Positions 109 through 61,735 of a DNA stretch of 64,000 bases are shown one piece after another (positions within the stretch are counted from its first letter, which is position 1; each line of letters begins with the position of its first letter). The position numbers and the translations under genes are program-made. Location of the stretch: NCBI GenBank assembly GCA_025765615.1, contig JAIVFJ010000186.1, forward strand, positions 1 to 64,000. Reading direction: 5' to 3'. Below the pieces are notes generated by a model that was not told the DNA's origin, did no database searches, and saw only the letters and a list, made by a program, of their open reading frames with translations. The DNA is from Zopfochytrium polystomum. Its lineage: Eukaryota; Chytridiomycota; Chytridiomycetes; Chytridiales; Chytridiaceae.

Positions 109-1639
109 TCCGCCTCATTCGAAGGTAAATTACGCTAAAATGCTCTTTACAGATTTGCCTTAAGCGCCCCAACAGCAACTGGCCCCAGATTCATGTCTTT
201 TTTCAGGCAGTGATGCAGTTGACAACCTTTCACTAATCGTGCACCAGCACGACTCCTGAACAAGTCCACGTCACTATGCCCGCCTTTCTGCAGCAGAGTA
301 TTGGTGCAATTGCCTATCTGCACATTCTGCTCCAAAAGCTTGAACACCAGCAGATACAGCAGATATCAGCAGGTTTTTCTTTGGATGCAAGCGGATATAC
401 ACAGTCAAATTTGATATCTGCGTCTGCTTATATCATTATCTGCCAAATGTCTGCAAGTCGGTTCGCAACCCTTGTCCATCTCTACCTTACCTGCATCCAG
501 AAGCAGATATCCACTTTGGGTTGGTGTTTGACCACAACCCTTTGTTGTTTGTGCTGGGACTGATAAGTGTGGTGGTTTTTCTCTTTTTTTTTCTTTTTTT
601 TTTTTTTTTTTTTTGTGTGTTTCCCACAGACGTAGGACTTGCTCCCACATCACTTGACTGCCTATCCTGGGGTGCCTAATACCGCCATTACATCACCTAA
701 TGCATTGGGTCCTGGGATGTTCCCCAGTGTCCAAAGTGGCAAGCCTGCATCCCTAACATGCCCAGTATCCCTCTGACCAAATTGCTTTACGCCAACAATT
801 TGTGGTTTTTTGGATGACGGCTATATTCATTACTGGATTCACAGCTAGCCTCTGCCATGACAAACCCTGTGATTACGATAGTTGGATCTATGCTGTAGTT
901 CCCCTCTGCTCGACACTATAGCTGGATTCAACCAAAGATCTCACCCCAGGAACGGTCCCTGGCGACTGGGAAAGAGCTGGTCCAGCAGACAATTTTGGAT
1001 TCAAAGATTGCAGCTGGTTGTGGAAGGCCAGAAACCTTGAGGCAAAAGTAACTACTCCCATTTAGGGTCAGTTTGAGCTCAGTGACAAAATGTAGTGTGA
1101 AACCGCAAATGTCAGCAGTGCTGCATTTGTGGACATGACAGACAAACAAACCCACTGGTTCTACATCAGGCTCCAGGGTGTGACAGACAACACAGTGGCA
1201 TTGAGCAAACCATAAGTAATAAACTTACAAAAGCCTTCAAATGAAGGCAAAGCACAGTGGATTAAGTGTCTGCAGCGCAATTGGGAGGTGGGGGAGGGTT
1301 TGATGGGCAGGTGATCCCTTAAGAAAAGAAAATGGGACTGTGGGGCTCCAATTGCGCAGACTTTTTGATCTGAAGCGACTTGACACCAATGGTGACATCC
1401 AACAGAGACATGAGGGCAAAATTATTTACAGAGATATCTTAAAATTTTGGTGAGTGAGACAGGGCCAGAGACTGTCAGCTGAACAATTGCCAGAAATAAC
1501 AAAATGCTGACAAACTAGTCATTTCTTTGTATTGGCAGGTCTGTCTGCTGTCCAGTCACTGGCAGGAGTATTGATTTCAACTTTGCAAGTGGGTCACTCA
1601 CCAAGGTTTTCAGGATATCGCAGTAACAGATAGAGAAAT
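109..1639. other. Intergenic region, no gene recognised
   Basis: I see no convincing coding sequence. Between about 300 and 520 the motif GCAGATA or its complement (TATCTGC) recurs many times, and a poly-T tract lies near 575-615. Open frames here are short and show no family resemblance. Confidence 0.5.
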
Positions 1640-1720
1640 GAGCAGAGTGGGATTCGAACCCACGCCTCTCTCGAGACTACGACCTGAACGTAGCGCCTTG
1701 GACCGCTCGGCCATCTGCCC
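1640..1720 (-). tRNA. tRNA-Leu(CAG)
   Basis: On the minus strand an 81-nt cloverleaf folds fully. Acceptor GGGCAGA pairs with TCTGCTC (one G:U); the D arm carries TGGCCGAGCGGTC (A box); anticodon stem CTACG/CGTAG closes loop TTCAGGT, giving anticodon CAG. There is a long class II variable arm (TCTCGAGAGA region), and T stem GTGGG/CCCAC closes TTCGAAT (B box). All stems are intact, so it is probably functional. No intron. CCA is not encoded, as expected in a eukaryote. Confidence 0.95.
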
Positions 1721-1911: not shown

Positions 1912-2005
1912 GCCTTCTTGGCTCAGTTGGCAGAGCGTCTCCCTAGTACCAGGAGTGAATCCTGACGGCAGGAGAAGGTCACCAGTTCGATTCTGGTAGA
2001 AGGCA
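1912..2005 (+). tRNA. tRNA-Thr(AGT) with 21-nt intron
   Basis: Acceptor GCCTTCT pairs perfectly with AGAAGGC, followed by discriminator A. D arm is TGGCTCAGTTGGCAGAGC; T stem ACCAG/CTGGT closes TTCGATT. The anticodon loop reads CTAGTA then a 21-nt insert (about 1954-1974) then A, with stem TCTCC/GGAGA, so the anticodon is AGT (Thr). The insert sits one nucleotide 3' of the anticodon, the canonical position of nuclear tRNA introns. It should be transcribed by Pol III and spliced by the tRNA endonuclease. Confidence 0.92.
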
Positions 2006-7957: not shown

Positions 7958-8365
7958 TTAACCTTGCCGACACAGCACCTCCTTGCCCTTTGCCTCAAAC
8001 GCATCCTCGGCGCCCACGTCGTCGTCATTCTTGACCAGCTCCACCATCTCACCCTCCGCCAGCCCGCTTCCTCCCAGCACCGCCGCCGCCGCCAACAACC
8101 TTGCCTCGTCGAAGCAAACCATCCTGCCCGTCTCGTCCTCTCCACACGCTTCCCCGTCCCGCAAGTCATCCGTCCCGAGCTTTCGGCTCACTACCACCAC
8201 CACCAACAAACGGCACCCACCCAACCTGTCGGCTTCCCCGCTGCCAGGATCACAGTCTGATCTTGTGAGGGCGCCAGAGACCCCGATAATCCCCTCGAGG
8301 AAAGAGAGCCTGGAGCCGGCGGCTGCCATTGCAATTGAGCTCGCGCAGCCACTGCCACCAACCAA
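7958..8365 (-). CDS. Hypothetical protein, possibly truncated by a retroelement
   Basis: A 135-codon minus-strand frame (segments LSFLEGIIGVSGALTRSD, GRMVCFDEARLLAAAAVLG and EMVELVKNDDDVGAED) has ordinary protein composition but no family I recognise. Its 5' end lies against a C-rich stretch and the start of the Ty3 remnant, so an upstream part may be missing. Confidence 0.3.
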   Translation of the reverse strand: MVGGSGCASSIAMAAAGSRLSFLEGIIGVSGALTRSDCDPGSGEADRLGGCRLLVVVVVSRKLGTDDLRDGEACGEDETGRMVCFDEARLLAAAAVLGGSGLAEGEMVELVKNDDDVGAEDAFEAKGKEVLCRQG

Positions 8366-8449
8366 CGTGGGGGTGGCGCCCCCCCCCCCGTCGCTGACCC
8401 AGGAGAGAGAGAGGGAAGAGAGATGGAGTGCTGTTCACCGCCGCGCGCG

Positions 8450-8473
8450 CCCCCCCCCCCCCCCCCCCCCCCC
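8450..8473. repeat. Poly-C homopolymer tract
   Basis: An uninterrupted run of about 24 C marks the left limit of recognisable Ty3 sequence. Such a run is unusual and may be a repair scar or an assembly artefact. Confidence 0.8.
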
Positions 8474-8489
8474 CTTTTGTTGGTTGGAG

Positions 8490-9195
8490 TTTCGCTTTAA
8501 CCCAGCAAGAGAGCCCAAGGTTCCCAGCCCTGACAAATCCACTGGGCTGGCCAAAGACCTCAAGAACTTTATGGCCACTGTGGAGAATGTCATCTTTCTC
8601 CAACCTTCAAGATTTCCCAGTAAGCAACTCAAGGCTCCTTTCACAAGCACCCTCCTGTCTGGTCAAGCCCAATCATGGTACAGATCTCTCCCATGCCCAC
8701 TCACCACCCTGCAAGAGCTCTGGGAGGGGCTCGAAGCTACCTTGGGTGACCCCTATGCATCTTGGACCAAGATCCAAGCTCAAGCATATCAAGCAAGGAA
8801 AGCAATCTTGTGTGGCCTACACCAACCAATTCAAGCAACTAGCCAGAGACTCTGGATACAATGATGCAGCTCTGATGGAGCTGTACCATGATGGTCTCCG
8901 TGAGTCTATCCAAGGCATGCTTTCCCAGTCTCTGCACATCCCTGAGACCTTGGAAGAGTACATTCTCCTTGCCATCAAGATTGACAACAGACTCTACTCC
9001 AAGAGGCTGAAGCAAAGACAACCAGGAACTACATCAAGACCTATCCCAGTGCCACAAGCTCTTACAGTTCCTGAACCCTTTCAAGTGGATTCAGTTGAGA
9101 CGCTTCCTAAGGGTCCTCTGAGCCAAGAGGAGAAAACAAGGATGGCCCAACAGGGACTACAGTTCCCAGTCAAGAATTCCAAGCCCCACTGCTGA
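8490..9195 (+). pseudogene. Ty3/gypsy gag, frameshifted
   Basis: The capsid-type region shows the retrotransposon gag pattern: LSGQAQSWYRSLP, then TTLQELWEGLEATLGDPYAS, then (after a frameshift near 8790) YTNQFKQLARDSGYNDAALM and a C-terminal LHIPETLEEYILLAIKIDNR. No CCHC zinc knuckle follows; the frame ends at 9195. Gag would form the virus-like particle in a live element. Confidence 0.85.
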
Positions 9196-15246: not shown

Positions 15247-16160
15247 GTTATTTCCCACTCTGAGAAATACAAGGAGGCCCTTTGACAGGCCTCCCTTGAA
15301 AGAGACAAGGATCCCTACTTTTTCCGACTTGGAGAGAGAGCATGGATGGCTGTCCCCCTTGACAACCCTGGTGACATTGGTGACAAAAGCTGTTCTCTTA
15401 TTTTCCGGTGGGTCGGACCTGTTCGAGTCATCGCCATCACTGGCGAGACGCAAAGACACAGTATAGCGTTGTAGAAATATTCCCTGCTAGACAGATTGTG
15501 GTACGAACTGTCCATATCTCCCGTCTGAGACCCTACACCAAGCGGGCTCCTGTAGACTCTGCAGAAGATGCTGTGACCAATAGTCTTGATGACTTTGAGA
15601 AAGAGATTGAAGAGTGGAAGACTGCTACTCGGCTCATGAAGAAACCTGCCTCAAAGACCACAACAGCCCCTGGAGTGCATGTTGACTTCCTTAAGAAGTA
15701 CACTTCAGAGGAAACCAAAGACCAAACTGCTGATGTAGAGTATCCTATTGAGAGGATCAAAGGTCATACCTTTGACAGAGAAAAGTATTACTATCTGACC
15801 AAATGGTTAGGATTCTCCACCAAACACAATTGGTACCAACTCAAAGAAGATCTTCACTGCCTTGCAGTGCGCGACTACTAGGAATTGGTGAAGACTGATG
15901 ATCCTGAAGAATATCAGAAACAATTGAAATGGTCACGGCTTCCAAAGAGCCGCAAGTTCCATGCGCCTAGTGCAAGGGTGGCCACACAGATGATAATGGA
16001 GAGAGATCAGTGCATGCTTCGTCCTCTCACCCCACCAGGTTCCAACCCCACCATGCAAGCTATTGCACTGTCTGTACAACCTGCCACAAGTCAGCCTGTT
16101 GCTGACCCGTCTACACCACAAACTCAACCTGTACCCCTGAGGAGGAGCACACCAGGATCT
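15247..16160 (+). pseudogene. Integrase C-terminus and chromodomain (Ty3 element 2)
   Basis: Continues the split Ty3 frame: WMAVPLDNPGDIGDKS, a short degenerate stretch, VVEIFPARQIVVRTVHISRL, an acidic linker, then a chromodomain in which the aromatic Trp is present (YYLTKWLGF). A TAG at about 15879 interrupts the tail. Chromodomains target integration to heterochromatin marks in chromoviruses. Confidence 0.75.
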
Positions 16161-16402
16161 CTCTTTTTGTGGCACATGGACGTGGTGAGCAGGCAGGTTG
16201 GTACTGTGCCGTATATGGCACGCTGTTTCGTTGGTTTGACGGAACTTTTCTTCACTAACAAAACGAGCAAGCTAATTTTGCCCGCATTTGCAGAATTGGT
16301 AGGACTACAACATATTAAAGTTTCACAAAGATTTGTTTTGTTTTGGTGAAGTTCTTCCAATTGTAATGGCAGAAAGTCAGGCATCATGCCGCTGGCAGTA
16401 CA

Positions 16403-16827
16403 ATGACTGTTAAAGGGTTAATATATGGAAATGGCAATCTTTTTTTGAGTCAGTATTTCAGTTCCAACATTCGAAAATGTTTTCAATATTTAAACAGCAC
16501 AGATGGTAAAATATTTAACAAGTCTTCTGAAGATATTCTTATTAAAGGACAGGAAGGAGACTTTGTATATTTAGACCCTCCTTACATAGATGACCATGAT
16601 AGTTACAGGTTTAATTATAATGTGTCTGAAACTTTAAACAATGACTTCATCTTACGGTTATTCGAACAGGTCAAGAAATTAGACAAAAGAAATGTTAAAT
16701 GGATGATGACACAGGCAGAGTCTAAAGATTTAGACGCATATTCAAAGATTATAATATAAAAACATTTGAAGTAAATTGACCCAAAGCAAAAGTATTCAAA
16801 AAAGAACTACTGATCATGAATTACTAA
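16403..16827 (+). pseudogene. Dam-type (D12 class) N6-adenine DNA methyltransferase fragment
   Basis: The frame 16403-16759 contains the catalytic DPPY motif (GDFVYLDPPYIDDHDSYRF), preceded by FQYLNSTDGKIFN and followed by VKWMMTQAESKD. After a frame break, KELLIMNY-stop (ends near 16827) matches the C-terminal strand typical of Dam/D12 enzymes. The N-terminal SAM-binding FxGG motif is missing: the fragment starts at TTAAAGGGTTAA. The DNA is strongly AT-rich. Such genes are normally bacterial, phage or giant-virus; here it is a foreign relic. Confidence 0.75.
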
Positions 16828-18082: not shown

Positions 18083-21000
18083 TCAAAACTCAATAAGACA
18101 AGAAAAGCCTTGACCAAGAGTGAAAACATTTTGCCTTGAGAGGAGCTGCACGTAACCACGTAATTCAGGTGGAAGCCACAAACAGACTTTTGTGATGTTG
18201 AAAATGAACCAAACACCATTCCTCATCACAGATTCAATGGCACCTTCTCCACTCTCCAGTCGTTGCCCTGACAAATTGCGTGCGCTAAAGTTGTGTGCCA
18301 AGCTGCCCACAAAGGAGAGAGCTCTGTCAGCATTTTCTTCTACAGGCAGTCCTGTCCTAAGATTGACATGTTTACTCTTGTCATTTTGTCTGTCCCTGAA
18401 CAAAACAGATTGCCCATCAGCACTGAATCCAGACGACACTGTGAATGAAAAACCATCCAGTTTATGCAGCTCCTGGCCACTGGATGCATTCCAAATCCTG
18501 ACCGACATGTCATAACTTCCAGACACAACAAACTGCCCATCAGGACTGAATGCTGCACACTCGACATAATCAGAGTGTCCATCCAGCTTACGCAGCTCCT
18601 GGCCAGTGGATGCATCCCAAATCCTCACTGTCTTGTCCCAACTTCCAGACACAACAAACTGCCCATCAGGACTGAATGCAGCAGAGTTGATGAAATCAGA
18701 GTGCCCATCAACCTTTTGCAGTTCCTGGCCAGTGGATGCATCCCAAATCCTGACTGTGGTGTCATCACTTCCAGACACAACAAATCGCCCATCAGGACTG
18801 AATCCTACAGACTTCACAAAATCAGAGTGTTCATCCAGCTTACACAGCTCCTGGCCAGTGGAAACATTCCAAATCCTGACTGTCTTGTCTCTACTTCCAG
18901 ACACAATTAACTGTCCATCAGGACTGAATGCTGCAGAGTAGACCCAGTGGGAGTGTCCATTCAGCTTACACAGCTCCTGTCCAGTGGAAGCATCCCAAAT
19001 CCTGACGGTCTTGTCTCCACTTCCAGACACAACAAACTGCCCATCAGGACTGAATGCTGCAGAGTTGACAAAATCAGAGTGTCCAACCAGCTTTCGCAGC
19101 TCCTGGCCAGTGGAAACATTCCAAATCCTGCCTGTCTTGTCTCTACTTCCAGACACAATCAACTGCCCATCAGGACTGAATGCTGCAGAGTTGACATAAT
19201 CAGAGTGTCCAACCAGCTTTCGCAGCTCTTGGCCAGAAGATGCATTCCAAATCCTGACCGTTTTGTCTCTACTTCCAGACACAATTAACTGTCCATCAGG
19301 ACTGAACATTGCAGACTTCACCAAGTGGGAGTGTCCATCCAGCTTACTTGGCTCCTCGCCAGTGAACACATTCCAAATCCTTACTGTCTTGCTTCTACTT
19401 CCAATCACAACAAACTGCCCATCAGGACTGAAAGCTGCACAGTTGACATCAGATTGTCCATCAAGTTTATGCAGCTCCTGGCCAGTGGATGCATTCCAAA
19501 TCCTGACTGTTTTGTCATCACTTCCCGACACAACAAACTGCCCATCAGGACTGAATGCTGCAGAGTAAACACCGGAAGAGTGTCCTTCGAGAATATTTAA
19601 ACAGGATGGCCAAGATTTGGGTTGTCCCTTTGCAACTTTAGGGCATGATATACCTCTTGGCACATTCTTTACAAATGTTTTAAAAAATTCAGAGTCACTC
19701 GGGGAGAAGGGCACAGCTGTGAAGTAAACTTGCAGGGCAGAAGCCTTGAGTGGGATGAGAAACTTCTGCACTACCCTTTTCATGTCTTCCATTAGAATGT
19801 GCAGTTGGTGTGCCTTGTCTGGAACTAGCTTCTGGAGCTTGGTCATGGCTGGAATCACGAGAGGAAGTGAATCAATTAAACTGCATGCTTCAAGGTAATG
19901 ATGTCCATGGCGCACAAGAAAGTCTCGCAGTTCACCAAATAGAGTCTGATCAAGCAAATATGATGGAGTTGTTGAAATGGGCTCCTCGATTGCACCTTCT
20001 CGCAAATCTTTCGTGGCCATTCCAAATTGTTGTGAAGGAAGATTAAAAGTTCCTTGCTGAATCAGACTGGTGTTGTCCTCTGCATCAAACCACATTTCAT
20101 TATTGTCTTCATCACAATCTTCTTGGATATTCTTTTCCACATCTGAACCACGTTTGGGCAGCATATTGGCTCCTGATTCAAAGCAATGCTCCCAGAAGTG
20201 CTTCACTGCATATCTGACATGCTCAGGGATTCCCTTCTCCACTTTCTCATCAAAATTGGGAATCTCAGGGTGAAAATCTGAGAATGGCATGTCACACATA
20301 TTGAATTTCAGATTCTTGTCCATTGTACTGATGCACAGGCTTGTAAATTCAGAGTGGCTACGTTTCAGGTAAATCTGAAGAGACAACGTGCATCTTTCAG
20401 GAGTTGTCAGGTAGTCCTTGACAGATTTGTGGAAAATCCTGATCTTCTTGGTGGAACCATCAAGCACAAGGATGGTATCAAGCAGGCGGATGCACCTCAG
20501 CACATTTTCAGGTGTCTCCTTGTCCAGCAGAGAGACAATGGCTGATGCAGTCAGAGGTTCATAGGCAAGAACAATGGTGGACAGCACAGCATGAAGACAA
20601 GTTTTCAAATGACTCTCTTTGATGGACTGAAGGATTCCATTGAATATTCTGTCATACATCAAGTCAATGCTTCCATCCATCTTGTCACCATCAGGAAGGT
20701 CTTTAATTTGCTCAAGAGTGATTTCTTCAGTCTCTAATTTCTGCAAGTAATTGCAAGCAGTCACAAGCCAGACGAAAATTCCAGCGGACTTTGACACCAG
20801 AATCTCTGATCCCTCATCAACAACAGATTGCTCAGCATTCAAGGATCTGAGGAAATTTCTTGTGAACTCAATTTGATCCTGAGTGTTCTCTTCAGCGGTT
20901 GGCTCAATCTCCTCAAATGGAATTTTTTCAAAGGCTTTCACAATATCAACTTCAGGGCGTCCAGTCACCAGCAACTTCACATTGACTGGAAGCTGCCTGT

Positions 21001-22953
21001 TCAACTCCTGAAATACTGAAAGAATCTCATTCCTCTTCCCAATAACACTGCATTCATCAAGGGCATCGACAATCAGGACCACAGGTGTATCCAGCTTTTT
21101 GGCAGCAACAACTTTCTTCAATGGCTGAACAAGCAATACTTTCATCATCTCAAACACAGATTTGGACAGAATATCTGGATTGCTTTGCTTGACTTGAAGC
21201 AGAATCTCTCCGTACTGAAGACTGAACTTTGCAAGACCAAACACAAGAGTCAAGGCTAGGTTTCGAGCACTGCTGCGACGCTCGTCATCATGCTTGCAGA
21301 AGAACAAGCCACCAAGCATTCCCTGGGCCTGCAGCTCCCTGGAGACCATAGCAGCCATCACAGACTTGCCCACTCCAGCCACACCTTTCAACCACATCAC
21401 CCTGTTGGTGTTAGCTACTGAAGGATCATCTGGAGACAAAAACTTGAACACTCTCTCAAGCAGCCACTGCCTAGATCCAGAAAGTACATTCTTCAGGAGA
21501 GCTTCCCTCTCAAGTTCCATGATTTCAGACAGGGGAGACAACCATTTCTCCAATTCAGCCAAACTAGATCTGGAAAGTGAAATATCTTGGCTTGGACTAG
21601 GAGTCTTCAATTCAGCTGTACGGCGACTATATACTTTTCTGGCTTCAGTCACAATCCTTTCATGAGAGCCTCAGTATCATGTGAAGTAACAAGGAAATCA
21701 ATGGTGTTTACACTTACATCATCACATCAGTCTCAGGGTTTGCTTTTGGCCCATTCAGCTCCAAAATCATCTTGACAGTTTCAGCCACTGTTTGGAGTCC
21801 TGGGCTCAGAGGGTGTGCATGAGGCTCAGCAGGAAACTTCGAGTGATCAAACGTGCTGAAGTCTACCAAGACCTTTGCCTTCTTGCCATTTGCCCGGTTT
21901 CCATCTTCCCTGCATGAAAGAAGGACAGGCAGAATGTCATGGCCTTTTTCTTTCTTCATTTGAAGTGCAAGCTCCCACTGAATGAAAGCGTCACCACGTG
22001 TGATATTGATGGGAAACAATCTCACCTCCAGCAAGCAGTTGTCAGGCTTTTTATCAGCCTCAAGCATCCTTTTCATACTTTCATCAGAACACAGCAGAAT
22101 GATGACTTTCGAGTGAAACAGTCCAGACATGAAGTTGATACCCCATTCCTCGGCGTAAGAAAGGCATTCCGCATCCAAGAAAGCATGTCTCCCATCCAGT
22201 CTGGACTCCTCAGTGAGGACAGATCCAGTGTAAGCTTCGAAAAAGGCGGTCTTCATCTTGTCAAAGAGTTTCCCAGCAAAGGCTGTCTCTGAAGCCTGCC
22301 GGTAGCTGAAAGAAATTTAAGGGTAGGTAAAAGCAGAATATAAAAAATACCTGATAAAAAAAGGGTGCTTTTGAACTTTGGTTTTGCACTCCCAATCATC
22401 TGGAATCAGTTCAATCCATTTATCTACAGATGGAAGAAGACAATTGTTTGCATTTACGAAACTACTGAAACGCCTTTCTCACCTTTCTTGTGTGCAAGAC
22501 TTTTATCGTAGATGTCATCTGCAGTAGCAGCAACACTAGCACTGCCACCAGATCCAGTAGGAGGAGCAGCAGCCAGTCCAGGGCTGTTTGTGGCTGTGGC
22601 AGAACCAGCAACACTCCCAGTGGAGATAGCTTTCACAGCACCAAGAACCTTTGAAGGTTTAGAATGTGAGAATTGAATCGAATAGAACGACAGAGAAAGG
22701 CAGACAACATAATAGTTACCTTCCACTTATAATTCTGAGTAAACATGTTGGACAGATCATCATCTGCATCAAGGATTGTTGCATCGTTTGTGGCAGAGTC
22801 CACATACAGCAACTCCACGGCATCAGGGATCTGGAATTTGGCAGCAACAAGCTGAAGCAAGCCGTCGAAACCAGTGGCTGCAGGTACACGGATCTTCCTT
22901 CCAATGCCTTCATACACAAAGATCACAGTCCATGCAGTCACTTGGTTGGCCAT
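18083..22953 (-). CDS. NLR/STAND protein: PB1-like, TIR, NACHT, ten WD40 repeats
   Basis: Five exons (22953-22720, 22648-22483, 22423-22351, 22305-21718, 21656-18083) join through GT-AG introns of 71, 59, 45 and 61 nt into an uninterrupted 1,544-residue protein. Residues about 6-78 resemble a PB1/ubiquitin-like fold (WTVIFVYEGIGRKIRVPA ... ILDADDDLSNMF). A Gly/Ala/Ser linker follows. The TIR domain (about 154-335) begins HPFFISYRQASETAFAG across an exon junction and has AFLDAECLSYAEEW, SKVIILLCSDESM and the Glu-bearing IQWELALQMKKE expected of TIR NADases. NACHT has Walker A KGVAGVGKS (about 444-452) and Walker B VVLIVDALDECS. Residues about 1040-1460 are ten WD40 repeats. By family analogy WD40 senses a ligand, NACHT oligomerises and TIR signals or depletes NAD, giving immunity or incompatibility-type cell death. 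No lesion was found, so it may be active. Confidence 0.9.
18340..19603 (-). repeat. 126-bp tandem repeat encoding the WD40 sensor
   Basis: About ten direct repeats with a 126-bp period (one is 123 bp) lie within the last NLR exon. Each encodes 42 residues of the form GHS..V.SAAFSPDGQFVVSGS.DKTVRIW(N/D)ASTGQEL(R/H/C)KLD. The framework is nearly invariant while a few positions vary; the C-terminal unit is degenerate. Such homogenised repeats evolve by unequal exchange in fungal HET/HNWD-type NLRs. Confidence 0.93.
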
Positions 22954-26299: not shown

Positions 26300-26672
26300 C
26301 ATCCACAACCTAAATCAGCGAGTCACCACACTGGAGCCACTCACTGCACAATTGGACAGCTGCCTCACCGCAGTGGACACGACCACCCAGCTCCTCAGCT
26401 CTCGCCTCTGGACAATTGAAGAATGGTTGAAATACAATGACCCGATTGATGAGGACCTTGACAAGCATTCCTCCGCTGAACTTTCTTCTACTACTACTGT
26501 CCCAGCTCAATCAGCTGTCACCACACACTCAAGCTCCAGTTCCTCTTCAACTCCTCCCAACAGAACTGCCCCCAAACCTGCCCCCAAACCTGCCCCCAAA
26601 CCTGCCCCCAAACCTGCTGCCAAACCTCCCCCAAAAACTGCCTCAAAAACCAGGAACACTGCCTCAACTTGA
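26300..26672 (+). pseudogene. LINE ORF1-like frame with PAPK repeats
   Basis: The frame has a heptad-like helix (VTTLEPLTAQLDSCLTAVD) followed by a Ser-rich linker and a tandem 12-bp repeat (CCCAAACCTGCC, about 26568-26630) encoding APKPAPKPAPKP, ending at 26672. LINE ORF1 proteins often combine a coiled coil with basic Pro-rich nucleic-acid-binding regions, but no zinc knuckle is visible. Confidence 0.5.
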
Positions 26673-26839
26673 CCAGTATTCTTATTCATTCTTTTGTGAA
26701 AGCCCCTTTGCTATTGATATCACTCTTATTTCTTCCAAAAAAAAAAAAAAAAACAGAGACATTATTAGCAGGACTTCCTGCACCCCTTAGTCAACTATGT
26801 CTGCTAGCCCTGTGTCTAGCACACCACCCCCAACACCAC

Positions 26840-27600
26840 CACCCTCCCTCGCTTTGCACTTGGAACATCCGTCATGCCTTCCCCACCAAGGCTGCATCTA
26901 TCTTCCACTGGCTCGATCACACCAAAACCACCATCCTTGCCATTCAAGAAACTGGCTGCTCTGACACAGAGGCCACCCACTCCATTCGTCACATCACTAG
27001 GAATTACAAAGGTTTCTTCATATCCTCCACCCCCTCCCATCACACTGGTGTTGGTTTCATCATTTCATCTTCCCTGGCACCACACATCACTGACGTCTCC
27101 CACTTTGGAACTCGTGCCATTGCCCTCACCTTATCTTTTGCTTGACGCTCCATCGTCCTGCAAAATATTTAGTGGCCTACTGACCCCCAATCTGAGGAAC
27201 TCCCTGACCTGCAAAAATGGTGCAACTCTCTTGCCTCATCTGACTCCACCTCACCCCACCAAGCCTACTGGTTTGGTGACTGGAATGCCATCACTGACCC
27301 CCTTGACCACTCCACCAGAGCCCCCACACCTACTTCCCGCCACAGGTTCCTCCCCACCCTCTCCCTGAAAGGCTTTGTTGATTCCTTTCGACACCTGCAC
27401 CCAGACTTACCCTCTTACACACACACTGCTGGCTCCTACTCCTCTCGTTTGGACAGCATTTGGCTCTCACCACCTGCTCTTGACTACATCACTGAAGCTA
27501 ACATTTCTTCTCCACTTGAAGAGCCCCATCTCACTGACACTTCAGACCACCTCCCCTTTAACATAATTCTTGCTTCCTCCCCCTTCCACACTTTCCCTTC
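26840..27600 (+). pseudogene. LINE AP-endonuclease domain, broken
   Basis: All key motifs of the endonuclease/exonuclease/phosphatase fold are present in order: TWNIRHAF (Asn), LAIQETGC (Glu), FGDWNAITDPLD (Asp/Asn), SSRLDSIWLS (Asp) and TDTSDHLPFNI (Asp-His). A TGA at about 27145 and a frame change interrupt the domain. In a live LINE this nicks target DNA for target-primed reverse transcription. Confidence 0.82.
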
Positions 27601-28473
27601 TCCCCTCTGCGCCGGCAGGTCATCAAACTCATGGAAGCTTCAGAAGAGCAACTCGACAATTACACATCAGCCGTCTCAGTTGAGCTTGCCCCCTCTCAGC
27701 AGCCCTTGCAGCCTTGGACAGCATTCTTCTCCCCTCCGAGCTTGAGTTCCTCCATTCTCCATCCCTACCCTTTCAATACCCCTCCCCAGAACGTGCATCA
27801 CTCCTCGTCAGCCACCTTGACACACTCTCCACATCATTTCACAAGTTGCTGCCGCATAAAACTTGTTGCAGGCATTATCTGGCTTCACCACACAATACAA
27901 CTCCCCTCTCACCAACAAGCAAGAGCCACTCGTCACCCATCTCCTGCTGAGCCCCCCGACGTTCACTGAGCCACTGTTGCCCTTCTCAATCTTGACATGG
28001 GCTGTAGCCTAATCTGACTTATCCCAACCCTCCGACTTTTCACAGCTGCTCCCCTCTCTTACACTGACCTCCTTCAGACTCACTTCTCTATTTTCTTGAT
28101 TCTGTGTTTTCCCCTTCTCCTTTAATCATTGTGGCTTTATGGGTGGTGGAGATGCCTGACAACCCTGTAAGTCTGTAGCGCATGGGGTGGGTTTGCTGAG
28201 GTGATACTGATGGCTCTTTCTTTAATCTAATGGTTTTCTTCCTCCGCTTTCCTCGGTATTCCAACATTGGGTCGAATTCACGGTCGCGAAGTATTGGTCG
28301 GGTGCGGTTCCAACAACGGAGCGACGGCCATTTGAAATCGCCCCTATGAAACGGGTGGCTGCTGATGCGCACCCTTGCTCCAAATGGGAATCGCTTGTTT
28401 GCAAAGACTTCATTCTATGCAGTTTATTATTGGCGATTTGACAGCATCACACGTCGTGATCACGTTGATGGTG

Positions 28474-38604: not shown

Positions 38605-39963
38605 ATGGACGATGGCTGCGCCTCCACATCAAGTTTTGGCGACTTCTTTGACGACGGCGACGGCGACGGCGACGTCGACGGCAGCCTCTTCTCAGCGAAC
38701 TTGTTTGCCGACCTGCCGACCGATGCGCTGCAGCGCCGCCTGGACGCGCTCGTGAAGCCAGACTTTCTGCCGGCCCCTTTGCCGCAGGCCGCCGCCGACC
38801 TCCTGTCGCGCTGGCACCAGCAGCAGCAGCATCGTCACGGTCAGTCTCAGTCGGCATCGTCGCACCCGATCACATGCGCGCTCGGACCATCAGACGAGCA
38901 GTCCTTCCAAGACATGATGGCGCACACATGGGGGGAAGGGCACGTTGGTACAGTGAGCAGGGGCAGTCTTTGCTTGTGACGCGGCCGCCCCCTTGATTAA
39001 CTCCACCCTCGCTATCCATTCGCAGAGTGCCCAGAACGCCTCACCACGATCCTCGCAGCCCTCAGCCCTTACTTCAACCGCCTGCAGCCCGTCCCGGGGC
39101 GCCGCTGCACCGACGCCGAAATCCTCCTTGCCCACACGCCGCGGCTCCTCGCCGACTTTCAGACCATGGAGCGGGGCGACGAGCTCGCGGCGACCACGAC
39201 GCTGACGAACCTGTCGTACGCGAACGCGGCGTACGCGTTCAGATCCGTCGGGCCGGTCGTGGCCGCGGCGTGCCGCGCGAGCGTCGGGAGCTGCCTGGCG
39301 CTCACTGACGCGCTGCTTCTGGCTGGAGGCGCCGGCTCGGGTCCGCGCGCCGCGTTTGCGGTAGTCCGCCCCGCGGGGCACCACAGCGGGCGCAGCTTCA
39401 CCGGCGGGTTCGGCGGGCTGAACCGGGTGGCGATCGCGGCGGGGCACGCGCGGGCGGTGCACGGGGTGCGGGTGGGGATCGTGGACTGGGACGTGCACCG
39501 CAGCGGCGGGACGGAAGACATTGTGGCGCACATGTTGGGCGGCGACCACGGCGACGGGGTGTGTCTGGCGGACGTGTACGGCGCGCTGGGGAACGTTGGC
39601 GCCGAGATTGACGGGTGCACGCGCCGGGCGGGGAATATTCTGTCTGTGGCGATGGAGGAAGGCGCCGGCGACGTCGAGTACGAGCGGGTCTTGCGGGAGA
39701 GGGTCGTGCCGTTTTTGCAGGGGTTTGGCTGCGAGTTTATTGTTGTGTCGGCGGGATTCGACTGCGGCGACGGAGAGAAGGAGGGGTTTCGGGTCACGCC
39801 CGAGGGCTTCAGGCGCATGGCGAGTATTCTTATAAACATGAACGGATGCAAGGTGCTGTTTGCCTTGGAGGGCGGGTACGAGCTGGATGTTTTGGCGGAG
39901 TGCGTGAAAGGCTGTGTTGAGGGCGCTCTAGGGCGTGAGGCTCTTGGAACAATCAAACCCTGA
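38605..39963 (+). CDS. Histone deacetylase (class II-like arginase-fold)
   Basis: Two exons (38605-38947, 39026-39963) encode 426 residues; the junction restores HVECPERL, a hallmark of class II enzymes. Motifs in order: ECPERLTTILAAL; AVVRPAGHHSGRSF (catalytic His pair); GFGGLNRVAIAAGHARAV (position of GFCFFNNVAIAA); VGIVDWDVHRSGGTEDI (zinc Asp and His); IVVSAGFDCGDGEKEGF (zinc Asp); LFALEGGYELDVLAECV (Tyr of GGY). All zinc ligands and the His pair are kept, so deacetylase activity is likely, on histone or another acyl-lysine. Odd points are the substitutions around the ligands (HRSGGTE for HHGNGTQ, FGGLNR for FCFFNN). The N-terminal 110 residues are acidic then Gln/His-rich and probably disordered. 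It converges with the receptor gene, 133 bp away. Confidence 0.88.
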
Positions 39964-50036: not shown

Positions 50037-51563
50037 TCAGTTCGACGCGCTGCCGTTCGACCCCGCGCCCCCCGCCGCAGCGGCGGCGGCGGCCTCGCGT
50101 GCGGCGGCCTCCTCCAAATGGCCCCTGAACCCGGCGACCTCACCGATGCCGTTGAGGACGAGGAACGGGCGATACGCGTCGTCAAAAAGGTTGCTGATGT
50201 TCGTGACGCCGCTCATGACGAGGACGGGGTCGATCATGGCAAACGTGCCCGCGAGTATGTCCGTGTCCATCCTGTCGCCGACGATGCACGTCTCGTTCTT
50301 GTCCGTGCCGAGGAGCTGCTGCGCAAACCGCATCATGAGGGAGGTAGGTTTGCCGCAGGTGAAGGCCTTTTTCCCCGTGGCGAGCTCGATGGTGGCGACA
50401 AAGGCGCCGCAGCCGGGTACCATGCCGTGTGACGAGTTGCCGTTGGTGTCTGGGTTGGTAGAGATGAGCTTGGCGCCGTTGAGGACGAGGTTGCAGGCTT
50501 TGGTGATTTTTTCAAAGTTGTGCGAGGTGCCTTCGCCGACGACCACGTAGTCGGGCTTTTCAGAGTCCATCGAGAAGCCGGCTTCGTAGAGCGCGTACGT
50601 GAGACCTGGCTCGCCAATGACGTAGCAGGAGCCCTGTCGAGGGGGTTTTGGGTGAGAGCTTGTCAATTGTTTGGGCGGGAAAGAACAAAAAAAAAAAAAA
50701 AAAAAAAAAAAGAAAGAAAAAATCATACCCCCTTTGGCCGCTGCGACTTTAAAAAGTTTGCCGTCGACATGGCCGACGTGAAAAAGTGCTCTTCGGACAC
50801 GTCCAGACCCATCCGCCGCACTAGTCAGTTTTCGCAAGAAATCAGTTCAATTGGGATACGATATCGAGGCAATGCCAAAAATTTCAAAAACAACTCACGT
50901 TTTTCAGACAGCTCTTTCGGGGTCGGCGCCGAGTTGTTGGTCTAAAGGAAGAAAGTGGACGGGGGCGGTTAATTGCAGAGGTACTGCACCACCACCACCA
51001 CCACCACCCACTCACGAGGAACAGAAACTTTTTGTTCTCCTTCTTGAGCCACGACACAAACTCCTTGACGCCGGGCAGCAAGACGCTGCCGTGGTACACG
51101 ACGCCGTCCATGTCGCAGATGAACGCTTTCTGGAATGATGATGAGCATGACGCGAGCGCGCTCGTCTTTAAAAAAAAAAAAAAAAAAAAAAAACCCCCTT
51201 GGGGGGGGGAGGGGAGGCGACCACCACCTTATCCCTGATGGCCTGCAACCGCTCCAAAAACTCGTCCTCGGCGAGCTCGGACAGGCGGGCGAGGTCTGCG
51301 GTGGAGTAGGACGGGATGCCGTGGTCGTTGAAGGGGTTTGAGGCTGCGGAGGCGGGGAGGAGCGAGACGGCGGCTTCGTGCGCGGCGCCGTCCTTCCATC
51401 TTTTCGCGGCGGCGGCGGCGGCGGCGGATGGCGGAGACGGTTGAATGCCGATGGGCGAGGTCGAGCGGGGGCGCCGGCCGCGGCGCGGCGAGGAGGAGGA
51501 GGAGGAGGAGGCGGCGGCGGCGGCGATCGATGGCGGTGGTGGAGTGGAGGATGTGGCGGACAT
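50037..51563 (-). CDS. HAD-type 4-nitrophenylphosphatase/phosphoglycolate phosphatase
   Basis: Five exons. Exon 1 (51563-51228) has a Ser/Ala-rich N-terminus then DEFLERLQAIRDK. Exon 2 starts at 51129 with KAFICDMDGVVYHGSVLLPG (motif I, nucleophile and acid Asp). Short exons follow: TNNSAPTPKELSEK (motif II) and VRRMGLDVSEEHFFTSAMST. The last exon carries EPGLTYALYEAGFSMDSEKP, DYVVVGEGTSHNFEKI, LISTNPDTN, TGKKAFTCGKPTSLMMRFAQ (motif III Lys region) and CIVGDRMDTDILAG (motif IV). This is the C2-capped PHO13/PGP family, which removes phosphate from 2-phosphoglycolate, glycerol-3-phosphate and side-product metabolites in the cytosol. The C-terminal Ala-rich tail is extra. A poly-A run of about 25 nt lies in the last intron. 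Confidence 0.9.
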
Positions 51564-56309: not shown

Positions 56310-59300
56310 ATGCTCCGGTCCGTCGCCATCCCTGCGTTCACCGCAGACCGACTGGCGGACAAGTCGGAGGGCAACACGGCGTGGGCGCGCAAGAAGAACA
56401 AGTCGCTTCCGTCGTTCGAGTCGACCGAAAACCTGATCAACGCGCTCGGCGCGGCGAACCTGTCTGGCCGGGCGTCTGCGGCGCACGGCGTGGGGTCGCC
56501 GCTTGTTCCGACGGATGGGGACGGCCGCAGGCCGCTAGGCGCCGCCGGCAACGGGAGCAACGGCGTCGCCGGCGTCGGTGGCGGTAGTGGTGGTGGTGGC
56601 GGGGGCGGCGGCGCGGCGTCGCCGTCCGGGTCGCTGAACTCGCTGGAACGGATGGACTCTTACGCATCGCTGAGCAACGCCGAGCGGCTGGCGATGGTTG
56701 CTGGCACGGCGGTGACTTCCGAGAGCGCCGCTGCGTACTCGCGCGTGGACCCGAGAGGTAAGAGTGTTTTGCGTGTGTGTGTTCTCCTCCCTCGGCCCCC
56801 TCCTCCTCCTCCTCCTCCTCCTCCTCCTCCTCCTCCTCCTCTCCCTCTCCCTCTCCCTCTCCCTGCTTCTCCTCCCCCCCCCCATGCCTGTGGCTTGTCG
56901 GGTGTGTTTGTTCCACGGGGGCGTGGTTGGTTGGTTGGTTGGTTGGTGGCCCAGAACGCGTGACCAACCCCCCAACCAACCAACCAACCAAATTGGAAAC
57001 GAAGACGCTTTTGGCAAAAGAAAGCCAAAAAGGATGGCTTAGATTTTCTTTTACATAGAGAAAACGGAAAAAGGGAAAAAAAAGAGAAAGAAAAGAAAGA
57101 AAAGAAAAGAAAGAAAAGAAAGAAAAAAAAAGAAAAAAAAAAAAGAAAGAAAGGACTGTCCCACAGGCCCAACTTCCATCCGCTCCTATCGTGCTACTTA
57201 CCATCTATTCTCCCCCCAACTTCACCGCACTACAAAAAAAAAAAAAAAAAAAAAACTTTCTTTCGCGCAGACGACGAGCTCTCGGAGGAGCTGCAGTCCA
57301 TCTTCAAGAGCTTCCAGCACTGCCTGGAGCTGCGCAAAAAGTACATGCAGTGCTCGTTCCAGTGCCCAGGCGACAACCCCAAGGACGCCGACGACTGGGC
57401 CATCTACCCACCGCCCCCGCGCCCGTCCTACCCGCCCACTGACGACCCGCCGCGCCTGGAGGACGTCGAGGGCTTTGTGTTTGAAAAGTGCGCCGTCCCG
57501 GGCGCCGACGAGGTGAGGAAAAGGAAACTCTCTCGCTCGCTCGCTCGAGGAAAGGGCCTTCCGCCCGGACCGTGTTCTAGCTCTTCTAATTCGCACTCTG
57601 CTCTCGCAGAAAGTCTTTCGATTGAGCGCGTCAGGCGTCTTTGAAGTGTTTGACAACGACGAAGGTACGGGCACCCCCCTCCCGTAAAAAAAAAACACGA
57701 CGTTTTATGCCTCCCCGCTTACAAAGAAATCGTTGTTGTGGTGTGCGGGGCGGAGCAGACGCGCAGGCCGGGAGGAACCCGTTGATCGAGTACCCGTCGT
57801 TGAACGAGTACTACAAAGACCAAGACTTTATCCTCACCGCGATTTCCGACGGCCCGACCAAGAGCTTTGCGTTCCGTCGACTTCGGTACCTCGAGTCCAA
57901 GTTCCACATGTACGTCTTGCTGAACGAGTACCAGGAACTCGCCGACCAAAAGGTTTGTGGGGCAGCGCCCCGCCCTTTGTTCATCCCTCGGCGGAGGAAA
58001 AAAGCTGACGTTTTCAACTCTGCCAGCGCGTCCCTCACCGTGACTTTTACAATGTTCGAAAAGTCGACACCCACGTTCACCACTCCTCGTGCATGAACCA
58101 GAAGCACCTGCTTCGGTTCATCAAGTCGAAATTGAAAAAGTTTCCAAATGTAAACTTTGCTCTTTTTCTGAGTTTTTTAGCTTGCGCCTGGTTCGCCGGC
58201 ACAAGACCGCCTTGGGGCGCCTTGCTGATCTGGTTTACTTTTTTTCATAAACGTGCCCGCGAAAAAAACGAAAACAAAATAGGAGGTCGTCATTTACCGT
58301 GACGAGAAGTACCTCACGCTTAAAGAGGTGTTTGAGAGCTTGCACCTGACCGCGTACGATCTCAGTATTGACACCCTTGACATGCATGCAAGTATCACGC
58401 CATTTCCAGCTGATGCAAAATCTTTCAAGAATCGTGGTTGACACCTTCTTTTTTTGTTCTTTCCTTGGACAGGCCCACAAGGACTCGTTCCACCGCTTTG
58501 ACAAATTCAACCTCAAGTACAACCCGATCGGCGAGTCGCGCCTACGCGAGATCTTTTTGAAAACTGACAACTACGTTCGCGGAAAATATCTTGCGGATTT
58601 GACGAAAGGTTCGTTCTGCGGTTACCTAAAGAAAGCGCTGACGATGGTTTCGTGTGTGACCAGAGGTGTTTTCGGACTTGGAGGCGAGCAAGTACCAGAT
58701 GATGGAGTATCGAATTTCGATCTACGGAAGGTGAGGGCACCATTTCTTCACTGCTCTTTGTTTAATGGGCATCCTGTGCATCCCTTAGCACATGCGATAA
58801 TCTTCTTTCATCCTTTCAATTTCCCTTTCTTCTTTCACACCCTCCAGGAGCAAATCGGAATGGGACAAGCTCGCCGAATGGGTCATCGACAACAAGCTCT
58901 TTTCGCACAACGTCCGCTGGTTGGTCCAGGTCCCGCGCCTGTACAACGTGTACAAGGGCCAAAAGCTGCTCAACAGCTTTCAGGACGTGCTACGAAACGT
59001 CTTTGAACCCCTTTTCGAGGTGACCAGGGACCCGTCCAGCCACCCCAAGCTGCACGTCTTTCTGCAGAGGGTGGTCGGCTTTGACAGCGTCGACGACGAG
59101 AGCAAGCCGGAGAGGCGGACGTACCGCAAGTACCCGAGCCCCTCCGAGTGGGACATTAGCTTGAATCCGCCGTACTCGTACTACCTGGTTAGGCCGCGTC
59201 TTGTTGTTCTCGATTTGGCGTGTTTGGGTTGTGCTCGATTCTAATACTGCGACGGAAAACTGATGGGAAATCTTTGCTCCACGCGTGCGAACAGTACTAC

Positions 59301-60842
59301 ATGTACGCCAACATGACCACTTTGAACGCGTGGAGAAAGTCGCGAGGCTTCAGTGAGTGACGAATGCTCGACTTTGTTTTCTTGCATCGCCAAGTCCGGG
59401 GACTCTTTCTAATGTTTCGCCCATTTTTTCTTTTTTTTTCTTTCCCTTTCCCTCCCGTCCGCGCCGCCTCAACAACAAAAGACACGTTTGTCCTTCGACC
59501 GCACGCGGGCGAAGCCGGCGACACGGACCACCTGACGTCTGCCTTCCTCACATCGCAAGCCATCAACCACGGCATCCTCCTTCGCAAGGTGCCGGCGGTG
59601 CAGTACCTCTACTACCTCGACCAGATCGGCATCGCCATGTCGCCGCTGTCGAACAACGCGCTGTTTCTCGACTACGAGCGCAACCCGTTCCCGAGCTTTT
59701 TCCAGCGCGGCCTCAACGTCTCGCTGTCGACCGACGACCCGCTGCAGTTCCACTTCACAAAGGAGCCGCTGATCGAGGAGTACAGCGTCGCGGCGCAGAT
59801 CTGGAAGCTGTCGTCCACGGACATGTGCGAGATTGCGCGAAACAGCGTGCTCCATAGCGGCTGGGAAATGTCGTGCAAAAAGTACTGGCTCGGCGAGAAC
59901 TGCCATTTGCCCGGGCCCGCCGGGAACGCCATTCAAAAGACGAACGTGGCCAACATACGGCTGTCGTACCGCTACCAGACGCTGATGGAAGAGCGCTTCA
60001 TGGTGTTTGCGTCGACGGCGCTGCTGAGCCAGCAAATGGCAGCCGCGGAAGCGATGGACGACGGCGCCGGCGCCGCGGAGGACCCGGCGGGAGCCGCGGG
60101 CCAGGCCGCAGCTGACGGTTCAGCGGCGACGGCGGCGGCGGGCGACGGCGCGGTACAGCCGATGGACGTGGACGGAGCCAGCGGTCCGTCGTCGCTGCCG
60201 CGCGGGCCGACGCCGACGGCGGTGCCCGACGGCGGCGGGCCGCCGACGCCGCTGGCCAAGCCGATCCCGTCGCCGCAGGTGTCTGCGGCCGCGTACGGCG
60301 CGTCGCGGACGCGGTCGGTCCCTGGCAGCGGAGGCGGGGCCAGCGCAGCGTCGCCGCTGTCGCACCCGGCGCAGTCGCCGATGATGGCGCCCGAGCCGCT
60401 CCTGCACGCCGTCAGCGGCGGCGGATCGAGCGGCACCGGCGGTGGCGGTAGTGGTGGCACTGGCGGCGGCGGCGGAGGAGTCGGCGGCGGCGCCGAGTCG
60501 CTGCTGTCGCCGCGGGCGGTGGTGGCGACGTCGAGCCTGCTGCTGCCGCTCCCGGAGGACGACGTGAACCGCGGGTTTATTGCGCTGTCGGCCCCCGCGC
60601 TGCCCATGATCCCGGGCGGACCGACCGTGACGGGACGCATTGGTGCCGCGGGGGTCACGTCGCCCATGATGATGGGCGTGAGCGGCGGCGGAACCACGGC
60701 GGGGGCCGGCGGGCCGCTGTCGCTCCCTTCGGCGTCGGCTTCGTCGCCCTCGCGCAGCGCGGGGGCCGGCGACAAGTACGCCAAGCGGGACTTTTCGGCG
60801 GCGTTTGAAAAGAGCGAGGAGAGCGGGTGGGACTCGTCGTGA
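56310..60842 (+). CDS. AMP deaminase
   Basis: About eleven exons, about 1,040 residues. AMP deaminase converts AMP to IMP plus ammonia in the purine nucleotide cycle and sets cytosolic adenylate balance. Recognised segments in order: [60 protein letters not shown] (zinc His pair); [70 protein letters not shown] (zinc His, catalytic Glu); [20 protein letters not shown]; and the signature [20 protein letters not shown]. Every catalytic residue is present. The regulatory N-terminus is short and Gly-rich. Unusually, after the normal end ([13 protein letters not shown]) about 290 residues of Gly/Ala/Pro/Ser-rich sequence follow to the stop. Introns hold CTC repeats, an A/G tract at 57060-57150 and a poly-A just before an acceptor at 57270. 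Confidence 0.95.
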
Positions 60843-61048: not shown

Positions 61049-61735
61049 CGAGAACCGACTCCTGAATAATCCTGCTGCTGCGCCGCAGCTTGGCGCAAAG
61101 CAGAAAGACCAAAGCGTTTTTTACATTCAAACCCTTTCAGTACCCAGACAAAAATCCCACCGATGGGACCACCACTGCCATTTTCGAAACGCTGCAGTCC
61201 CAGGTTCAACACCTTACTTAACCTAGCATTCAAAACCCACACTAGCGACTGCTCGCTGTTGGAGCGTGGGAGGTATGACGGCTGATAGCGCATTACGTTT
61301 TGTGTTGGTCATATTGTGGGGGGAAAAAAAAAAAAAAAAAAAAATGAGGAAAATTGTATTTTGTGTTGCCCACTTTTTCAGGTTGGCTTTCGCTTTCTGT
61401 CAAACATTTTTAGCGCGACGTTCAAAAGCTGTCTTCCGCGCAAAGAGATGGAAACACATTGTGGAGACTTTGCTTTGACGCTTTCTGCACTTCACTCGCA
61501 TTCTCTCGGTCGCCTTCTCAAGCAGGACAACTGGTACCTCAAATTCATCTGTTGATATTTATATATATATTAGCGTGCCTTAGCCTTCAAGGCTTTAACC
61601 CATCATATAAACCACACAAGCGCTGCTCACGCATGCGTCAAAACGCCCAAAAGATGAGCTGTGTGATGCACACGTGTTTTCGCCGAGTGTCCGAGATACC
61701 CATTAAATATAATGAGCAGGCCTGCACTCATTCCA
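60843..61735. other. Intergenic region, poly-T/poly-A tracts
   Basis: Poly-T at about 60920-60940, poly-A at 61014-61047 and 61324-61343. A block at 61130-61190 (CCCTTTCAGTACC...) resembles, in inverse orientation, 63045-63235. No gene is supported. Confidence 0.5.

Follow-up and report, generated by a model that had tools for sequence, protein, structure and literature searches.

Several described systems approach the gene considered here, which lies on the minus strand of a 64,000-nucleotide stretch of the chytrid Zopfochytrium polystomum (Chytridiomycota; contig JAIVFJ010000186.1, positions 1 to 64,000; hereafter the window) and encodes PB1, TIR, NACHT and WD40 domains in a single chain. 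In SARM1, SAM domains cluster a TIR domain that cleaves nicotinamide adenine dinucleotide (NAD), that is, a TIR NADase. Surveys of NOD-like receptors (NLRs) in fungi rest largely on Dikarya and on gene models as deposited. In the WD40 repeats of Podospora, codons 7, 9, 25 and 27 are under strong positive selection, lie on the interaction face and flank the conserved positions 8 and 26 (PMC1805685). In filaments of plant NBR1 and human p62, two adjacent arginines in strand beta-2 of the PB1 domain (R19-R20 of Arabidopsis NBR1, AtNBR1) bind the acidic residues of the OPCA motif of the next subunit; this double arginine is the main contributor to self-assembly and binding in pull-downs is abrogated without it, with a lysine in beta-1 assisting (PMC6978347). 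A study of 12 fungal proteomes gave Bem1, Cdc24, Mug70 and NoxR as the families of PB1 proteins in fungi and set aside a lone PB1–SAM protein; its main text contains neither TIR nor NACHT (PMC7051960). TIR domains have been reported on NLRs of Chytridiomycota (PMC9815663) and the present genome has dozens, so a first-pass annotation of the window, made from the sequence without database searches, was too strong in calling TIR fused to NACHT uncommon in fungi.

We consider it probable that the Z. polystomum protein, one of at least 89 PB1–TIR–NACHT loci of its kind, serves as an internal non-self receptor, with a propeller that would sense a ligand and a TIR domain that would break down NAD. 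This interpretation draws on the order of the domains, an intact P-loop and Walker B motif, a glutamate directly before the WELAL motif of TIR, low ratios of nonsynonymous to synonymous substitution (dN/dS) and hypervariability in the propeller. The gene starts at 22953 and its stop ends at 18083. Profile matches over the respective cut-offs place PB1 before TIR, NACHT and WD40, the order that the first-pass annotation had proposed for what it took to be a fungus-like genome; both the receptor-type architecture and the motifs that it quoted (FISYRQ, WELAL, GVAGVGKS and VVLIVDALDE, all on the minus strand) are borne out. Pfam PB1 scores 26.0 bits on exon 1 alone (cut-off 23.6) and 24.7 bits on the N-terminal piece, TIR_2 scores 39.5 bits once an overlooked intron is removed (28.0 bits with it; cut-off 28), and NACHT (PF05729) scores 29.9 bits (cut-off 26.7). 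The WD40 profile gives 382 bits in nine stretches. Ten repeats had been counted previously; by eye nine are clear and the tenth is degenerate. No match to HET, SAM or ARM was found in the N-terminal pieces (Pfam, E ≤ 1).

The TIR motifs HPFFISYR, HAFLDAECL, VIILLCS and DNCLLEWELAL are present here and largely conserved among the paralogs, and E251, directly before WELAL, is Glu in 32 of the 34 paralogous places that cover the position. Assigning it by motif and not by structure, we take E251 to be the catalytic glutamate expected in helix C of a TIR NADase. The P-loop signature GxxGxGKS/T appears in all 39 paralogous places covering it (39/39).

We find the gene to be genuine and intact, with a product that is most likely a protein of 1,528 amino acids from six exons separated by five introns (Table 1). 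The five-exon, 1,544-codon model of the first-pass annotation could be rebuilt exactly, with GT..AG introns and no internal stop, but it had overlooked one intron, an in-frame segment of 48 bases at 22025..21978 (GTGAGA...TTCATTCAG) inside its fourth exon. Introns were placed by spliced alignment of this gene and 42 paralogous places, which are the 44 fetched loci minus the gene itself (L049) and one duplicate (L043, L051); some of the fetched loci cover this stretch in part, and there are truncated copies among them. Exactly these five introns, with no stop in the aligned part, occur in 16 of the 42 places. The overlooked intron 4 recurs in 33 of them at lengths of 45 to 172 bases. Although open in this copy, the segment is untranslatable in 25 of the 33 (9 are not a multiple of three and 16 hold an in-frame stop; 8 are open); the 25 include 13 of the 16 copies just described, with their five introns and stop-free aligned part. 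The residues that it would add are not conserved across paralogs, and P0010 and P0011, two relatives with deposited sequences, have LLEWELAL and LLEWENAL with no insert at this place. We prefer 1,528 over 1,544 residues because of this recurrence and untranslatability, the insert-free relatives and the gain in TIR_2 score. A different acceptor for intron 5 (TGAG in place of GAAAG) was rejected, as it breaks the frame and yields 105 stops. In a separate observation, protein P0003 of Nowakowskiella sp. JEL0078 reads LLEVTYQTFEQWELAL, without the middle of the TIR domain, and looks like a model in which the equivalent of intron 4 was partly kept.

Some deposited gene models of this genome leave out the TIR exons. 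When 120 15-mers were sampled from each protein, 117 of those from P0002 and 117 of those from P0015 were found in genome loci (L006 and L004, respectively), and both models start at an internal Met before NACHT, with TIR exons carrying the introns of the family directly upstream. For P0010, of which only the gene start was fetched, 19 of 120 15-mers lay in a genome locus, and P0001, P0004, P0013 and P0022 could not be matched to any of the fetched loci. Deposited models thus hide the PB1–TIR–NACHT layout at least twice, and surveys resting on such models would miss it, because the two matched models left out the upstream TIR exons. One might take the same two models, which begin just before NACHT, as a sign that PB1–TIR and NACHT–WD40 are adjacent genes joined by an artefact of the spliced model. 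We regard this as very improbable, since 36 of the 42 paralogous places have intron 5, at the junction of TIR and NACHT, with its position and phase unchanged, and since P0010 and a Borealophlyctis protein, P0025, hold a PB1 or PB1-like part, TIR and NACHT in a single chain.

Table 1. Features of the PB1–TIR–NACHT–WD40 gene, in positions of the window; intron counts give the paralogous places with an intron at the identical place and phase.
Feature	Position	Strand	Basis
Exon 1: PB1 domain, residues 1-78	22720..22953	-	Pfam PB1, fold model
R19-K20 tandem basic pair, strand beta-2	22894..22899	-	conservation; alignment to AtNBR1
Acidic OPCA motif, residues 50-67 (YVDSATNDATILDADDDL)	22753..22806	-	conservation
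Intron 1, 71 bases, residue 78, phase 0	22649..22719	-	32/42 paralogous places
Exon 2: low-complexity linker	22483..22648	-	dN/dS 0.45
Intron 2, 59 bases, residue 133, phase 1	22424..22482	-	30/42 paralogous places
Exon 3: TIR start (HPFFIS)	22351..22423	-	splice model
Intron 3, 45 bases, residue 157, phase 2	22306..22350	-	32/42 paralogous places
Exon 4: TIR first half, ending LLE; last codon 22026-22028 = E251	22026..22305	-	paralog alignment
Intron 4, 48 bases, residue 251, phase 0	21978..22025	-	33/42 paralogous places, 25/33 untranslatable
Exon 5: TIR second half, starting WELAL	21718..21977	-	splice model
Intron 5, 61 bases, residue 337, phase 2	21657..21717	-	36/42 paralogous places
Exon 6: NACHT, a middle part, the WD40 repeats, the C-terminal tail and the stop	18083..21656	-	one open frame
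NACHT domain	20921..21403	-	PF05729 29.9 bits
P-loop GVAGVGKS	21362..21385	-	sequence
Walker B VVLIVDALDEC	21050..21082	-	sequence
WD40 repeats, residues 1027-1445, nine clear and one degenerate	18335..19591	-	profile and by eye

Of the 29 exons scanned (this gene and 28 paralogs), 27 matched Pfam PB1 at E ≤ 0.01, and a profile built from the PB1 exons, compared with solved structures, found the PB1 domain of Arabidopsis NBR1 at E 1.4e-5; matches to the MEKK3, ARF7 and p40phox structures reached E 0.3-0.5 only. The predicted fold is beta-beta-alpha-beta-beta-alpha with a predicted local distance difference test score (pLDDT) of 79, so the ubiquitin-like fold for which the first-pass annotation had suggested a structure check was not refuted. 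The 50 fold matches listed for this model are ubiquitin-like, FERM, RA, PB1 and similar domains; the highest template modeling (TM) score among them belongs to the p40/p67phox PB1 pair (0.70-0.72), beside which other ubiquitin-like folds rank, and none passes E 0.001. A Crinkler-type ubiquitin-like N-terminus (cf. PMC9815663) was considered and rejected, as Pfam at E ≤ 1 on the N-terminal piece gave PB1 and not Crinkler.

Conservation across the 29 aligned PB1 rows bears on how this domain might assemble. The acidic residues of OPCA are kept (D/E at 52, 65 and 66 in 27 rows), and positions R19 and K20 are both basic in 26, mostly as Arg-Lys rather than Arg-Arg. A HMMER alignment sets R19-K20 of the chytrid PB1 on R19-R20 of AtNBR1. 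Because the putative main contact of the filament type is present, we put self-assembly first and treat a partner with a basic face as the main rival; the chytrid PB1 domains would likely cluster, perhaps by linking to one another head to tail.

We searched the 80-Mb assembly with the PB1 exon, TIR and NACHT of this gene as queries and scored the best candidates, which returned at least 130 PB1, 153 TIR and 152 NACHT matches. Pfam alone gave 86 NACHT, 85 TIR_2 and 35 PB1 matches. For the count of layouts we used the best 150 of the 153 TIR and of the 152 NACHT matches and merged split PB1 matches (130 to 128), leaving at least 128 PB1 loci on 102 contigs. Among the matches listed, at least 89 of the 128 are followed on the same strand by TIR (at most 2.5 kb away) and NACHT (at most 4 kb away), and 8 have TIR only; the median distances from PB1 are 422 bases to TIR and 1,191 bases to NACHT. 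In the opposite direction, taken as a control, NACHT lies within 4 kb upstream of none of the 128 PB1 loci among these matches. The order PB1–TIR–NACHT is therefore more than chance. The full PB1–TIR–NACHT–WD40 layout was present in all four further copies fetched at greater length (4/4), one of which (L080) reaches the end of the fetched piece.

With pairs dropped if dS fell outside 0.02-1.5 or coverage was below 60%, median dN/dS against this gene was 0.33 for PB1 (n=32), 0.17 for TIR (n=26) and 0.18 for the start of NACHT (n=32); the linker in exon 2 had the highest median among the segments compared (0.45; n=27). Purifying constraint on PB1, TIR and NACHT is clear, with dN/dS well below 1. 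Identity between paralogs is a patchwork: for L050, for example, nucleotide identity to this gene is 98% across PB1 and 76% over the latter half of TIR. Such jumps between segments of one paralog are as expected if paralogs exchange segments. The genome also holds a second TIR–NACHT family, comprising L083 (C57:325800-329800) and about 30 NACHT matches at 32-39% identity; in L083, ankyrin-like repeats (by eye) follow NACHT and the N-terminus has no Pfam match.

We asked which positions of the WD40 repeats vary most, using 48 repeats of 42 positions from five genes, chosen by their IW/FW anchor alone. Positions 7, 25, 6, 9 and 27 ranked highest, with nonsynonymous diversity (pN) at 2.1-3.3 times the mean synonymous diversity (pS), and positions 8 and 26, which lie between the variable ones, ranked 22nd and 19th of 42. 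All four of the selected Podospora positions are thus in the top five of 42, for which the chance is about 4.5e-5 (38 of 850,668 sets), with the numbering made equivalent to that of the Podospora repeat from the conserved V8 and D26 and their spacing. The shared hypervariable positions point to a common recognition surface in putative receptors of very distant fungi. As the Podospora family is one of incompatibility genes, these four positions, together with the patchwork identity between paralogs, could also be read as the mark of a repertoire used mainly for allorecognition (fusion incompatibility), like HET-D/HET-E, and not against parasites. We find this unlikely: at least 89 loci stand against ten NACHT/WD genes in Podospora (PMC1805685), and the majority of fungal NLRs have no part in allorecognition (PMC12881547). 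The habit of the organism also argues against an allorecognition repertoire. Chytrids form little fusing mycelium.

If the protein is a receptor for non-self, as we propose, its domains could act in sequence. Binding of a ligand by the WD40 propeller would open NACHT, which would bind nucleotide and oligomerize, bringing the PB1 domains together. These might then link head to tail, R19-K20 of one engaging the acidic OPCA of the next, so that the TIR domains would stack and become active in cleaving NAD; the cell would then die or cease growth ahead of the spread of an invader or incompatible partner. The role of PB1 here would be that of the SAM domains in SARM1.

A number of observations weigh against this scheme. 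In the TIR domain, the AlphaFold2 model, which we do not count as evidence against a TIR fold, has a pLDDT of 54, its query being the contiguous frame 21717-22316, in which the first strand is absent and intron 4 is kept, and no TIR domain is among the 50 Foldseek matches listed for the model from that flawed query. A phmmer search of TIR against solved structures gave no match, and the TIR profile found SARM1 alone among them, with the match (E 0.5-0.9) lying on the first strand. In the family at large, NACHT without TIR accompanies 9 of the 128 PB1 loci, and neither accompanies 22, among the matches listed; some copies lack TIR or carry stops, so the 89 or more loci need not all be intact. 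In the propeller, eight repeats of this gene share on average 76% amino acid and 83% DNA identity, the former below the 85% threshold for high internal conservation (PMC4986451), and synonymous change is also raised at the most variable positions, whose own pN/pS is about 1.1 to 2.2 by counts made without a tree-based test.

The last point of this kind concerns PB1. The position of the beta-1 lysine (position 11) is basic in none of the 29 rows (0/29). An OPCA motif without that lysine defines a type 1 PB1 domain (PMC7051960), and by this textbook rule the chytrid domain would be type 1, acidic only, and in need of a partner. PB1 might then be an adaptor that recruits a PB1 protein with a basic face, for example of the NoxR, Cdc24 or Bem1 type or a kinase, so that the receptor would signal by way of this partner, with TIR mainly serving as a scaffold. 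The absence of the lysine in 29/29 rows beside a conserved OPCA, the presence in fungi of Bem1, Cdc24, Mug70 and NoxR as PB1 families, and the top TM score of the p40/p67phox pair in the fold comparison all favor such an adaptor. A purely acidic adaptor, however, would not need the basic pair that 26 of 29 rows keep, and no partner can be named from a search confined to PB1 profile matches in the genome. We therefore rate recruitment of a partner as a serious though rather doubtful alternative to head-to-tail assembly of PB1.

Relatives in protein searches came from Cladochytrium, Nowakowskiella, Chytridium, Rhizophlyctis, Siphonaria, Podochytrium, Chytriomyces, Borealophlyctis and Synchytrium, with weaker, NACHT-only matches in mushrooms (Thelephora, Marasmius and Psilocybe), ascomycetes and one stramenopile. 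In Borealophlyctis nickersoniae P0025, deposited as "WD repeat-containing protein 20, partial," PB1 (26.6 bits) and TIR_2 (68.5 bits) precede the P-loop, and the precomputed Pfam list includes NACHT and WD40 families. Its PB1 resembles the profile of the Zopfochytrium PB1 family weakly (11% probability); we count it as the same layout because Pfam PB1 itself is over the cut-off. Zopfochytrium P0010 has a PB1-like N-terminus (96.8% in profile comparison; Pfam 19.2 bits, below the cut-off) followed by TIR_2 at 33.0 bits and a NACHT-type ATPase. N-termini that looked PB1-like by eye in Nowakowskiella P0003, Cladochytrium P0012 and Rhizophlyctis P0019 reached 16.8%, 3.7% and 0.3% in profile comparison and were not counted, and Pfam PB1 was absent from P0012, P0013, P0016, P0019 and L083 of the second family. 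In Chytridium lagenaria P0017, a SAM domain (34.8 bits, residues 5-58 on) comes first, then the motifs FISYR and LLEWEIAL and a P-loop. WD40 families are listed for P0017 as well, which gives it the look of a SARM1-like SAM–TIR pair fused to an NLR.

The receptor gene sits among mobile elements, as judged from frames around it that resemble, by eye, a retroelement gag (7962-9195, plus strand), a chromodomain/integrase (15384-15881, plus strand), a LINE (long interspersed nuclear element) endonuclease (26480-27745, plus strand) and a Tc1-type transposase (61627-62244, minus strand). Such frames on both sides would suit a relic of a family that had spread through transposon-rich regions and has little present function, as would the several copies that lack TIR or carry stops and the 22 PB1 loci with neither TIR nor NACHT nearby. 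That reading is improbable in our view, given that this copy is intact across 1,528 codons, that dN/dS is 0.17-0.33 over PB1, TIR and NACHT, and that variation in the propeller is patterned. Elsewhere in the window, a fragment with a DPPY motif (16367-16759, plus strand) resembles a DNA adenine methyltransferase by eye, and a tRNA-Leu(CAG) at 1639-1720 (minus strand) lies close to a tRNA-Tyr(GTA) at 1912-2005 (plus strand), of which tRNA-Leu alone passed the Rfam cut-off. The ordinary neighbors include frames that look like a histone deacetylase (39001-39963, plus strand), a HAD-type phosphatase (50037-50846, minus strand) and an AMP deaminase (58350-60842, plus strand), again as judged by eye.

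In a wider and more tentative perspective, which we put forward as a possibility rather than an expectation, chytrids may possess a large immune-receptor system, so far hardly annotated, whose members carry a polymerizing module (PB1 here, SAM in Chytridium lagenaria) before a TIR NADase on NACHT–WD40, a SARM1-like death engine built into a receptor, and recognition through the same diversifying propeller faces could be an ancient solution that chytrids and Podospora have in common. If so, we know of no earlier filament-forming nucleator in an NLR that would be of the same kind as PB1. With a sensor, a nucleator and a predicted NAD-consuming enzyme in one chain, the family lends itself to experimental test, and the presence of PB1 or SAM before TIR makes the clustering of TIR receptors in fungi directly testable.

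The predicted receptor is of a known kind, and TIR in chytrid NLRs has already been reported (PMC9815663); the PB1 module in front and the expansion of the family were not found described. No PB1–TIR or PB1–NACHT receptor turned up among the papers listed in searches of the open-license literature, in keeping with the first-pass annotation, which knew of no described receptor with a PB1-like module before TIR. The TIR-bearing NLRs of Chytridiomycota and Pezizomycotina (PMC9815663) resemble this gene in that a fungal NLR carries a TIR or TIR-like domain, but the main text of that paper nowhere contains the string PB1; it mentions Crinkler N-termini (of the ubiquitin clan). Borealophlyctis P0025 shares the layout of PB1, TIR, NACHT and WD40, with a more typical TIR and 28% identity over 44% of the query. 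NBR1/p62 PB1 domains have in common with the chytrid domain the OPCA motif, the tandem basic pair and the AtNBR1 profile match at E 1.4e-5, whereas in the chytrid the beta-1 lysine is replaced and the domain is fused to TIR–NACHT–WD40. SARM1 has an oligomerizing domain adjoining a TIR NADase, as proposed for the chytrid protein. The profile match to it is weak (E 0.5-0.9), and it joins TIR to SAM and ARM where the chytrid protein has PB1 and NACHT/WD40, although chytrid P0017 has SAM before its TIR motifs. The HNWD proteins of Podospora anserina (HET-D, HET-E and HET-R) differ in having a HET domain, which is only remotely TIR-like and has no match in the N-terminal pieces of the chytrid protein, in lacking PB1, in belonging to a set of ten NACHT/WD genes, against at least 89 chytrid loci, and in having repeats more alike than those of this chytrid gene. 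They nevertheless share with the Z. polystomum protein an N-terminal TIR-related domain followed by NACHT and WD40, and the same positions, 7, 9, 25 and 27, are hypervariable in both.

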